Assembly: GCA_015486015.1 (NCBI GenBank)
Contig: WFSL01000041.1
Span: forward strand, 1 to 27,531
DNA length: 27,531 nucleotides
Direction of reading: 5' to 3'
DNA from: Aquificota bacterium
GTDB lineage: Bacteria > Thermosulfidibacterota > Thermosulfidibacteria > Thermosulfidibacterales > B14-G1
Shown here: in pieces, positions 21,503-24,507 of the stretch
Numbering within the stretch: position 1 is the stretch's first letter
Layout: every line of letters begins with the position of its first letter
The notes under the pieces: generated by a model
Database searches by the model: none
The model's input: only the letters and a program-made list of their open reading frames with translations
Told to the model about the DNA's origin: nothing
Made by a program: the position numbers and the translations under genes

Positions 21503-22279
21503 TCACCAGCAGCGCACCACCTTTTCCACTGTATCCTCAAGGATATGGGCCATCTCTTCCATTACAGAGGGGGGATAAGGCCTTAGGGCAGAAAAGGAAG
21601 GGTCCAAGGTATGGCTATTCCTAAAGGGCTGGAGATGATACTCAGGTGCCCCCATCGCCAGGCGTGCTATCTCTATCATCTCCTTCCTCCCCACCACCCC
21701 AGGCACCAAAGTGGTCCTCAGGATATAGTGGGGGGCCAGCTCCCTTACCACTGCCATAGCCTCTCTCACAGCCTCAAAACCGGTCCCCCTGGTGACTTGG
21801 GGGTACCGAGATGGAGAGGTCTTGATATCCAAGGCTACCACATCCGCAAGCCCTGCCTTCAAGGCCTCTTTCAGAACCTGGGGGCGGGAACCATTGGTGT
21901 CCAGCTTTACAGCAAATCCAAGAGCCTTCAAGGACTCCAGAAAGGGGAGGAGATCCTCCTGCAAGGTAGGCTCCCCCCCAGAGACCACTACCCCAGAAAC
22001 GAGCTTTTTCCGCCTGTCCAGCTCCTCAAGAATCACAGAAGGGGGAATCTCCTTCTGCTCTTCAATCAGTGAGGGGAGGACAAGCCCTGGGTTGTGGCAA
22101 AAGGGGCAACGGAAATTGCAGCCGCCAAAGAACACTATAGAGGCCATCCTCCCAGGGAAATCCACTAAGGTGATCCCATTGAAGCCCCTGATTCCCCAAC
22201 CGTCTTTGGCTAATGACCGATGGCCGCTACCCTTAAAGCTTGATGTATTTCCGATCCTTGAACTCCTCTTTCTTCCCAT
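21503..22279 (-). CDS. nrdG: Anaerobic ribonucleotide reductase activase (radical SAM, NrdG-like)
   Basis: A radical-SAM activase of about 258 residues that would generate the glycyl radical on the anaerobic reductase. The family opening GFNGITLVDFPGRMASIVFF is followed by the cluster motif CNFRCPFC (CxxxCxxC). Downstream are VVSGGEPTLQ (SAM-binding GGEP) and LDTNGSRP. This pattern fits the longer NrdG2/PflA-like activases. The start is unclear: the family normally begins near IRGFNG, but no ATG, GTG or TTG is there. I use ATG 22279, which overlaps the glycyl-radical ORF by 47 bases; an alternative TTG lies at 22315. Position directly after the split nrdD supports the role. Confidence 0.85.
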   Translation of the reverse strand: MGRKRSSRIGNTSSFKGSGHRSLAKDGWGIRGFNGITLVDFPGRMASIVFFGGCNFRCPFCHNPGLVLPSLIEEQKEIPPSVILEELDRRKKLVSGVVVSGGEPTLQEDLLPFLESLKALGFAVKLDTNGSRPQVLKEALKAGLADVVALDIKTSPSRYPQVTRGTGFEAVREAMAVVRELAPHYILRTTLVPGVVGRKEMIEIARLAMGAPEYHLQPFRNSHTLDPSFSALRPYPPSVMEEMAHILEDTVEKVVRCW

Positions 22280-22409
22280 CGTTCCAGTTCTGAACTGGCC
22301 TGTAGTACCCAACAATCCTGGAGTACACCTCCACGGGCACCGCTTTTACTTTAACTTTCGAGGCTGCCCTAATGGACCTCCTCCTCTCTACAGTAATGCT
22401 CTCCTTCAT
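22233..22409 (-). CDS. Stand-alone glycyl-radical domain of class III RNR (split NrdD C terminus)
   Basis: A 58-residue ORF, too short for routine ORF lists. It starts at ATG 22409, with GGAGGG in the ribosome position directly after the large nrdD stop (TAAGGAGGGCAAG then ATG). Its last 33 residues are the classic end of anaerobic reductase: VEVYSRIVGYYRPVQNWN, then GKKEEFKDRKY. The Gly of RIVGYYRP (Gly34) corresponds to the glycyl radical residue. The first 24 residues are basic (VERRRSIRAASKVKVKA) and not NrdD-like. The large nrdD gene stops 10 bases earlier without this motif, so the enzyme would need this peptide as a subunit. It overlaps nrdG. Function is strongly supported by motif and position; assembly in trans is inferred. 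Confidence 0.85.
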   Translation of the reverse strand: MKESITVERRRSIRAASKVKVKAVPVEVYSRIVGYYRPVQNWNDGKKEEFKDRKYIKL

Positions 22410-22419
22410 CTTGCCCTCC

Positions 22420-24507
22420 TTATCCCTGTACCTCTATGCTGTCCAGCAACCTATAAGCATCAGGCGAGGCTTCCTCTAAGGCCTTCCCTTCCACCACCAT
22501 CTCCTCCCCATAAGCCTCCAGTTCCTCTGGGGTGTGGGGATAAGGGCAGAAGGCATGCTCTCCAGATATGTAGCCGTGGACAGGGCATACAGAGAAGGTA
22601 GGTGTAATGCTGAAGTAGGGGATCCTGTAATTGGAGACCACTGCCTTCACCAGATCCCTAATTACCCAGGGATCGAATACCGCCTCACCCAGGAAGAGAT
22701 GGACCACCGTTCCCCCAGTGAAGAGCACCTGGAGCTCGTCTTGATGCTCCAGTATCTCCCATAGGTCCCCAGAATAGTCTACTGGCAGATGTACAGAGTT
22801 TGTATAATAGGGGTGTTCCCTCCCCTTGGTAATTATACCGGGGAACTTCTCGACATCCTTTTTGGCCAGTCTGTAAGAGGCACCCTCCGCAGGGGTGGCT
22901 TCCAGGTTATAAAGGTTACCCGTCTCTTCTTGAAACTCTGCAAGCCTTTCCCTCATAAATTCTAAGACCCTTATGGCCCACTCCTTGGCCTCAGGTTCGT
23001 AGATGGGCAACCCCAGAAAGTTCAAGCAGGCCTCGTTCATTCCAATGAGCCCAATGGTGGCGAAGTGGTTGTGCCAGTACTTGCCCGTGCAATCCTTTAC
23101 CTCTGATAGATAGACCTTGGAGTAAGGATAGAGCCCCTTCTCGGTGTAGTCCTCAATCACCTTGCGTTTGATCTCCAATGAGACCTTGGCCAGCTCCATG
23201 AAGCGCCCAAGCCTCTCAAAAAAATCCCTTTCATTTCTCGAGAGGTAGGCTATCCTTGGGAGGTTAAGGGTGACTACCCCTATGGAACCTGTAAGTGGGG
23301 AGGCCCCAAATAGGCCCCCACCCCTTCTCTTCAACTCCCTGTTGTCCAACCTTAGTCTGCAGCACATGGACCGTGCATCCTCTGGCTCCATCTCAGCATT
23401 CACAAAATTGGCAAAATAAGGGATCCCATACTTACCTGTCATCTCCCATAGGGGCTTCATCTCTTCCTGATCCCAGGGGAAGTCCCTCGTGATGTTATAA
23501 GTAGGGATAGGGAAGGTGAATACCCTCCCCCTGGCGTCGCCTTCTATCATGAGTTCTGCAAAGGCCCTGTTGATCATATCCATCTCTTTCTGGAACTCCC
23601 CATAGGTGACCTCCTGCTCCTGCCCACCCCAAATCACCTTCCTATCTCTATAGGTGGATGGTGGTATCAGGTCCATAGTGATGTTGGTGAATGGGGTCTG
23701 AAAGCCCACCCTGGTGGGCACATTGAGGTTGAAGAGGAACTCCTGAAGGCACTGCTTCACCCCATAAAAATCCAGACCATCGAATCTGACAAACGGGGCT
23801 AAGAGGGTGTCAAAATTGCTGAAGGCCTGGGCACCGGCAGCCTCCCCTTGGAGGGTATAGAAGAAGTTCACAATCTGCCCCAAGGCTGTCCTCAAGTGGC
23901 GTGCCGGCCTGGCCTCGATCTTCCCTCGCACCCCTCCAAATCCCCTTCTCAGAAGCCCTTCCAGGTCCCAGCCCACACAGTAGGCTGCCAGTATGCCCAA
24001 GTCATGGATGTGAAAGTCACCCTCCTCATGGGCCTGCCTGACATCCGAGGGATAGAGGTGGTTTAGCCAATAGCGGGCTACAACAGAGGAGGCAATGTGA
24101 AAGTTGAGCCCCTGGAGGGAGTAGTTCATGTTGGAATTCTCCCTGACCCGCCAGTCTTCCTTGTCCAGGTAATGCTCCACCAGAGACATACCGTCCACCA
24201 GGGCCTTCTGTAGGTCCCTGGCCACCCTTCTCTGCTCCCGGTAGAGTATGTATGCCTTGGCTACTTGGGCATGTCCCCGTTCTATGAGTACCTTCTCTAC
24301 CAGATCCTGGATCTCCTCTACATGTGGAATAGAACCCTTCTTGAAAAACCGCTCATACAGGATGAGGGAGACCTCGTTGGCCAGTTCCTCTGCCACTGCC
24401 CTGTCCTTTCCCCCCACAGCCTTGGCAGCCTTAAAGATGGCATTGGCTATCCTCTCTTTGGTGAAGGGGACTATCTTCCCATCCCTTTTTCTAACAAGAT
24501 ACTCCAT
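22420..24507 (-). CDS. nrdD: Class III anaerobic ribonucleoside-triphosphate reductase, large part without glycyl-radical motif
   Basis: A 695-residue catalytic protein that reduces ribonucleotides to deoxyribonucleotides without oxygen. An N-terminal ATP cone (about 1-90) opens MEYLVRKRDGKIVPFTKERI. The core has the family stretches DFHIHDLGILAAYCVGWDLE, SMCCRLRLDNREL (active-site Cys), GGGLFGASPLTGSIGVVTLN and, near the end, FSITPTFSVCPVHGYISGEH. Normal family members then have CPxCG and the RVxGYxRP radical motif. Here the sequence reads CPYPHTPEELEAYGEE and ends about 40 residues later with no radical Gly, which is supplied by the next ORF. I start at ATG 24507: AGGGGGTGG precedes it, and the promoter -10 lies at 24549-24554, which excludes the frame's first ATG at 24558. 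Confidence 0.92.
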   Translation of the reverse strand: MEYLVRKRDGKIVPFTKERIANAIFKAAKAVGGKDRAVAEELANEVSLILYERFFKKGSIPHVEEIQDLVEKVLIERGHAQVAKAYILYREQRRVARDLQKALVDGMSLVEHYLDKEDWRVRENSNMNYSLQGLNFHIASSVVARYWLNHLYPSDVRQAHEEGDFHIHDLGILAAYCVGWDLEGLLRRGFGGVRGKIEARPARHLRTALGQIVNFFYTLQGEAAGAQAFSNFDTLLAPFVRFDGLDFYGVKQCLQEFLFNLNVPTRVGFQTPFTNITMDLIPPSTYRDRKVIWGGQEQEVTYGEFQKEMDMINRAFAELMIEGDARGRVFTFPIPTYNITRDFPWDQEEMKPLWEMTGKYGIPYFANFVNAEMEPEDARSMCCRLRLDNRELKRRGGGLFGASPLTGSIGVVTLNLPRIAYLSRNERDFFERLGRFMELAKVSLEIKRKVIEDYTEKGLYPYSKVYLSEVKDCTGKYWHNHFATIGLIGMNEACLNFLGLPIYEPEAKEWAIRVLEFMRERLAEFQEETGNLYNLEATPAEGASYRLAKKDVEKFPGIITKGREHPYYTNSVHLPVDYSGDLWEILEHQDELQVLFTGGTVVHLFLGEAVFDPWVIRDLVKAVVSNYRIPYFSITPTFSVCPVHGYISGEHAFCPYPHTPEELEAYGEEMVVEGKALEEASPDAYRLLDSIEVQG

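Follow-up and report, generated by a model that had tools for sequence, protein, structure and literature searches.

Separate radical subunits are known in class I ribonucleotide reductase (RNR). In class III RNR, reviews and RNR database papers put the radical glycine in the catalytic chain, NrdD. A class II enzyme built from two chains, NrdJa/NrdJb, is present in Pseudomonas aeruginosa (PMC4520616), and split domains have been suggested as possibly distinct to class II (PMC9669993). Coding of nrdD in pieces is described in phages, where in most cases introns, inteins or homing genes break up the gene and splicing largely restores it (PMC3653736; jug phages, PMC12363816). For another enzyme, pyruvate formate-lyase (PFL), the small protein YfiD/GrcA supplies a glycyl-radical C-terminus to the catalytic chain after cleavage by oxygen; T4 Y06I is the phage version of YfiD, and the paper describing it speculates that further glycyl-radical enzymes might have such spare parts too (PMC8683613). 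The locus described here lies in a stretch of 27,531 nucleotides (contig WFSL01000041.1 of an Aquificota bacterium, lineage B14-G1), which as a whole is called the window, and consists of nrdD, a 58-codon gene and nrdG2. We consider it very likely, judging from the genes, that it encodes an obligate two-chain class III RNR, consisting of a catalytic chain and a separate glycyl-radical protein, followed by the activase NrdG2. The features of the locus are as follows.

22420..24507, minus strand: nrdD catalytic chain (ATP-cone and NRDD positions 1-526), without the glycyl-radical segment
22534..22587, minus strand: putative zinc-site region CPVHGYISGEHAFCPYPH, the last ligand pair changed from CPxC
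22423..22533, minus strand: C-terminal tail of the large chain, acidic (net charge -9), 37 residues, proposed docking element
22410..22419, minus strand: intergenic sequence GGAGGGCAAG, 10 bases
22233..22409, minus strand: 58-codon gene with ATG at 22409, predicted glycyl-radical subunit of class III RNR
22332..22409, minus strand: basic head of the small chain, 26 residues, net charge +6, proposed docking element
22308..22310, minus strand: codon for Gly34 of the RIVGYYRP motif, the predicted radical glycine, invariant in the alignment
21503..22315, minus strand: nrdG2, radical S-adenosylmethionine activase, open frame (TIGR02495, 178.8 bits)

With ordinary NrdD (T4, Thermotoga maritima, Prevotella copri, Streptococcus thermophilus) the system shares the ATP-cone, the barrel, the conserved CC motif, the NrdG activase and the radical segment R-V/I-x-G-Y-x-R-P ... 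GKxxEF. Unlike ordinary NrdD, it carries the radical glycine on a second polypeptide, its zinc region is altered (CPYPH) or, elsewhere in the window's clade, lost, and a new acidic tail and a new basic head are present. It resembles NrdJa/NrdJb in being an RNR made of two chains, but the window's chain belongs to NRDD and not to the PF02867 family. With the phage genes it has in common that nrdD is coded in pieces; here, however, the gap is too short for an intervening element, and each piece has a start of its own and an added tail.

On the minus strand nrdD, the 58-codon open reading frame (ORF) and nrdG2 follow one another in the same direction. The start of nrdD is the ATG at 24507 (MEYLVRKRDGK), with the frame open upstream to 24558, and the gene ends at 22420 with the stop codon TAA (22422-22420). 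This stop is overlapped by the Shine-Dalgarno site of the small gene (TAAGGAGG; also written TAAGGAGGGCAAGATG), the frames of the two genes are offset by 13 nucleotides, and the small ORF terminates at 22233 with RIVGYYRPVQNWNDGKKEEFKDRKYIKL. In Pfam the large protein matches positions 1-526 of the NRDD model (PF13597; E 2e-178), and the small ORF matches positions 533-560, the last 28 positions only (E 1.6e-10); both matches are above the curated cut-off, and together the two proteins make up one complete NrdD. The large chain also matches PF03477 (ATP-cone) and PRK08270 (1027 bits), its zinc region reads CPVH...CPYPH, and the RVxGY motif is absent from it. These two NRDD matches are the only ones in the genome (1.62 Mb, about 97% complete). 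No model specific to the small protein was found in PHROGs or NCBIfam, and a sequence search of PDB chains with this very short query gave no match. An earlier note, made from the letters of this DNA, had described an nrdD with an altered zinc region and no radical motif, followed ten bases later by a 58-residue ORF with its own Shine-Dalgarno site and ATG that carries the radical segment, and had placed the cut between the zinc region and the radical loop; the ORF reading and the Pfam matches on both sides of the cut bear out this description. The barrel homology and the ATP-cone of the large chain, the RVxGY segment encoded in the genome and the activase NrdG encoded nearby (nrdG2) are all those of a class III RNR. 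Because the radical segment is not on the same chain but on a separate 58-residue protein, the enzyme in the window is a two-chain variant of class III RNR and not a standard NrdD.

All nine genomes of the window's phylum in the collection, representing five genera, are split and have the small ORF beside nrdD, and a fused NrdD, which the earlier note had named as evidence against its proposal, is found in none of them. Since the segment that nrdD lacks comes immediately after it, in the expected order and on its strand, and since this is conserved throughout the phylum, the arrangement is far beyond chance. The small ORF of the window differs from those of the related loci L001-L003 at 11-16% of non-synonymous and 57-76% of synonymous sites, and L002 differs from L003 at 3% and 46%, respectively; the corresponding ratios of non-synonymous to synonymous change (dN/dS), 0.11 for the window and L003 and 0.04 for L002 and L003, indicate purifying selection. 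The start of the small gene lies 13 nucleotides past the first base of the nrdD stop codon in the window and 14 in L001-L003; in L004 the two genes overlap, in L028 they are in frame with two different stops between them, and in L005, L017 and L015 they share one frame with a single stop separating them. The frame offsets in the window, L001-L004 and L028 are 1, 2, 2, 2, 1 and 0, and no frame-restoring indel, the other finding that would have spoken for one continuous gene, is conserved. A conserved frameshift joining the genes is impossible, because the frame relation changes between relatives. The intergenic sequences differ between relatives as well, and most loci show a separate start and a Shine-Dalgarno site for the small ORF. 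The 37 residues after the zinc region and the 26-residue head of the small chain are extra sequence, absent from fused NrdDs. Tail, head, selection and shifting frames are characteristic of a two-chain protein that has become established and do not fit a broken gene.

The joining of the two chains was modelled with AlphaFold2 on L028, a member of the window's clade whose large chain is 70% identical to that of the window, by reading the two intergenic stops as glycine. The mean predicted local distance difference test score (pLDDT) of this pseudo-linked chain is 85.6, with values of about 75-92 in the small-protein part and below 50 in the linker (693-701). The model overlays P. copri NrdD (8p2s_B; Z 34.4, root mean square deviation 2.6 Å for 550 aligned residues, with 96-746 of the model lying on 85-735 of the chain) and also T. 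maritima NrdD (4u3e_B), up to model residue 750. In this tethered model, built with fused homologues in the alignment, the small protein occupies the position of the radical domain in the solved NrdDs, which supports the view that the small chain would insert at the normal place of that domain. A non-covalent radical domain is plausible, because the radical domain of P. copri NrdD is mobile and ordered only in the active monomer (PMC11226230).

Different elements may hold the two chains together in different groups. In each of the nine members of the window's clade an acidic tail on the large chain (-3 to -12) is matched by a basic head on the small one (+2 to +6). In Desulfurellales the last helix of the large chain and the first helix of the small chain are both predicted with confidence (pLDDT mostly 92-97), and the Elusimicrobiota sequences resemble these helix-type ends. 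In some Patescibacteria, phages and one archaeal virus, zinc-ribbon-like heads occur. The occurrence of differing docking elements at the same cut fits independent origins. The zinc-ribbon-like head was seen at the N-terminus of the small chain in L074, L076, L079, L136, L138, L160, L169, L195 and L219 (ANMV-1 virus). The ANMV-1 virus protein AJP62049 (GenBank KP703175), called 'anaerobic ribonucleoside triphosphate reductase' and known by annotation only, has in common with the window's small protein a stand-alone NrdD-type radical segment, but it differs in its length of 144 residues, in its zinc-ribbon-like head and in belonging to an archaeal virus.

A search with the large chain gave 80 genome loci, and in about 35 of them the cut falls where it does in the window, after the zinc region and before E-V-Y-S-R-V-V-G-Y. 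The same cut is present in Aminicenantes, Thermodesulfobacteria, Desulfurellales, Elusimicrobiota, Patescibacteria, Goldiibacteriota and Pacearchaeota. In a quick maximum-likelihood tree (LG+G4) of 76 NrdD cores, from which the radical segment was excluded, 33 are split, and the window groups with Aminicenantes and Thermodesulfobacteria in a starred clade whose nine rows are all split. The fused/split label changes at least nine times on this tree, five of these changes being forced by the starred branches alone, whereas shuffled labels on the same tree give a mean of 25 changes; the tree being a quick one, the counts are approximate, and without a root gain and loss of the split are indistinguishable. 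A single ancient split is unsupported, as the tree requires nine changes, with at least five forced, and, as far as these sequences indicate, the split form is one that arose repeatedly.

According to hand counts from tables, 44 of the 66 NrdD-bearing Elusimicrobiota genomes and 31 of about 51 in Patescibacteria are split (four of the latter read as a single frame with internal stops). In 30 split genomes a fused NrdD is absent throughout; each has one catalytic chain and at least one small gene, and 18 of them have no match to class I or class II RNR. Gaps in metagenome-assembled genomes (MAGs) can account for some of the 18 but hardly for all. Because no fused copy is present in the 30 genomes and 18 of them have no class I/II enzyme, the two-piece class III RNR probably works, and in several lineages the split enzyme is probably the sole RNR. 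Many columns of the catalytic core are invariant between split and fused enzymes, and the zinc region is lost in the large chains of Aminicenantes. In one Halanaerobiales MAG (L090:775-3686) the order is nrdD, nrdG, small radical gene, whereas elsewhere the small gene stands directly after nrdD.

In the proposed two-chain enzyme, translation would be coupled, with ribosomes ending nrdD and beginning the small gene immediately. The small chain would dock by its basic head onto the large chain's acidic tail, and its RIVGYYRP loop would enter the barrel in the same way as the covalent C-terminus of ordinary NrdD. NrdG2 and S-adenosylmethionine would then generate the radical on Gly34, from where it would be passed to the catalytic cysteine of the large chain. 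The radical subunit may be exchangeable, because it is not covalently bound: after oxygen cleavage at the glycine, only the small peptide would need replacing, and one catalytic chain could also be supplied by extra copies from the chromosome or from phages. Four points weigh against this interpretation. First, the two-chain enzyme is known from genes and predicted structure alone; second, the tethering of the chains and the fused homologues in the alignment favoured docking in the L028 model by construction; third, the window's genome encodes one class II-type RNR (PF02867) on another contig, so that the class III enzyme may not be essential there; fourth, the absence of PF02867 in MAGs may reflect incompleteness.

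Among the alternatives, the one that survives best, although it is itself very improbable, is that the small protein is a spare part that repairs oxygen-cleaved NrdD, as YfiD/GrcA does for PFL, and not a normal subunit. Its size and logic match YfiD/Y06I (PMC8683613), it consists of only a radical segment with a short head (58 residues), and additional unlinked and phage-borne copies exist. However, YfiD serves a PFL that has been cleaved by oxygen, whereas the sole large NrdD in the window and in the 30 split genomes is made without a radical glycine, so there is nothing intact to repair. Moreover, no PFL-type glycine-radical homology was found, the Pfam and NCBIfam matches of the small protein all being to NrdD models (PF13597 in Pfam). 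The small protein is therefore not a GrcA, being of the wrong family and having no intact partner, but it may act like one where extra copies exist. The suggestion in the earlier note of an exchangeable part similar to YfiD/GrcA thus fails for the copy linked to nrdD, whose large chain never has a radical glycine of its own, and fits the extra unlinked and phage copies, for which the spare-part explanation can hold.

Even less probable is that the split NrdD is decayed and inactive and that the genome relies on its class II RNR. The presence of the PF02867 enzyme would agree with this, and so would the alteration of the zinc region to CPYPH and its loss in Aminicenantes, but purifying selection on the small gene, the invariant columns of the catalytic core and the 18 split genomes without a class I/II match all argue for a functional enzyme. 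We give still less credence to the possibility that the frames are rejoined into a normal NrdD by programmed frameshifting, stop read-through or splicing. On the one hand, the genes are adjacent and nearly overlapping, and in L005, L017 and L015 one stop in a common frame is all that separates them. On the other hand, the offset varies among close relatives (1 in the window, 2 in L001-L003, 0 with two different stops in L028), 10 nucleotides are too short for an intron or intein, and small genes also occur unlinked to nrdD (G306) or behind nrdG (L090); the varying frames and the short gap are grounds for rejecting a programmed frameshift, an intron and an intein. Least credible of all is an assembly error or recent frameshift in an ordinary nrdD that left the small ORF as a pseudogene remnant: the frames are indeed one base out of register and 10 bases apart, but the split at the same place in nine genomes of the phylum and in many other phyla, the small ORF's own start and Shine-Dalgarno site in most loci, dN/dS of 0.04-0.11 and the additional sequence of tail and head contradict it.

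Several split genomes carry additional small genes that are not linked to nrdD, as is the case in 11 of the 44 split Elusimicrobiota, and some of these genes adjoin DUF5675 and phage-lysis-type genes. In G076, from the window's family, an extra copy (L217:6054-6227) occupies precisely the space that separates the gene for the terminase large subunit from the Mu-type portal gene of a Mu-like prophage, in which Mu F-like and capsid E genes come next; no activase was seen beside it. Over 35 core codons the prophage and host copies differ at 50% of the synonymous sites but at 6% of the non-synonymous ones. In a first scan of IMG/VR, whose records can be fragments, 29 records were searched whole, and an NRDD match was present in 28, which in 27 cases was a radical segment without an NrdD catalytic chain in the record. 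A second scan gave 402 relatives, of which the best 80 were classified: about 60 are small stand-alone ORFs, three are neighbours of an NrdD core and about 15 belong to fused proteins. The automatic call had been 65 stand-alone ORFs and was crude, as it included the fused L178, L189 and L200, and for L191 and L201 a wrong frame had been read. The neighbours of the phage copies include terminase, portal, lysozyme, integrase, SSB, ThyX and DnaB genes. GenBank phages gave few matches, and the phage evidence rests on IMG/VR and the prophages. The phage copies are a parallel to T4 Y06I, and they may be active as opposed to being decoys or inhibitors. Dozens of phage contigs among the IMG/VR loci L092-L121 and L122-L201 carry a stand-alone NrdD-type radical gene of 40-70 codons and have no NrdD, and two records (G285 and G294) have two copies each.

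In the literature searched, outside of which lie the subscription journals, no description of a separate NrdD radical subunit was found, and priority is uncertain; nor was a report of a spare part for RNR found there. All nine genomes of the phylum, many other phyla, purifying selection and a confident docked model speak for the central proposal of the earlier note, a glycyl-radical polypeptide encoded on its own. The finding, best read as an obligate class III RNR of two chains whose radical subunit would be detachable, holds up and goes beyond what was first stated. A repeatedly evolved, widespread form with the glycine on a tiny separate protein would change the subunit picture of an essential enzyme. 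As separate parts can be mixed, mutated and labelled, the insertion of the glycyl radical into the barrel and the swap after oxygen damage become testable. Genomes annotated with a truncated NrdD may have a complete pathway, and a class of phage genes of 40-60 codons, with no PHROG family of its own, has been overlooked by annotation.

Some further observations concern single loci. There is apparently no ATG, GTG or TTG between the end of the small gene and the conserved N-terminus of nrdG2, and the listed start of the nrdG2 open frame, TTG at 22315, lies inside the small gene; the true start is likely downstream of 22233, a rarer start codon or an overlapping start. In a member of Falkowbacteria (L087:2400-2579) a second stand-alone radical gene is located in a division cluster, between rsmH and an ftsL-like gene. 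Elusimicrobiota with a fused NrdD encode a different protein of 100 residues, ending in ITRVVGYYSRVENWNKSKKGELDDRH, which has a weak NRDD match (L202:1655-1969, also L203-L205) and in L202 adjoins an Rrf2-like regulator and a ferredoxin-like gene; this protein is a candidate for a true spare part. In Patescibacteria whose nrdD has no radical segment, an unlinked protein of 145 residues carries the variant segment RRITGYLVGTLDRWNDAKKAEE and is encoded near mutM- and polA-like genes (L209:1614-2051, L210:1388-1939).
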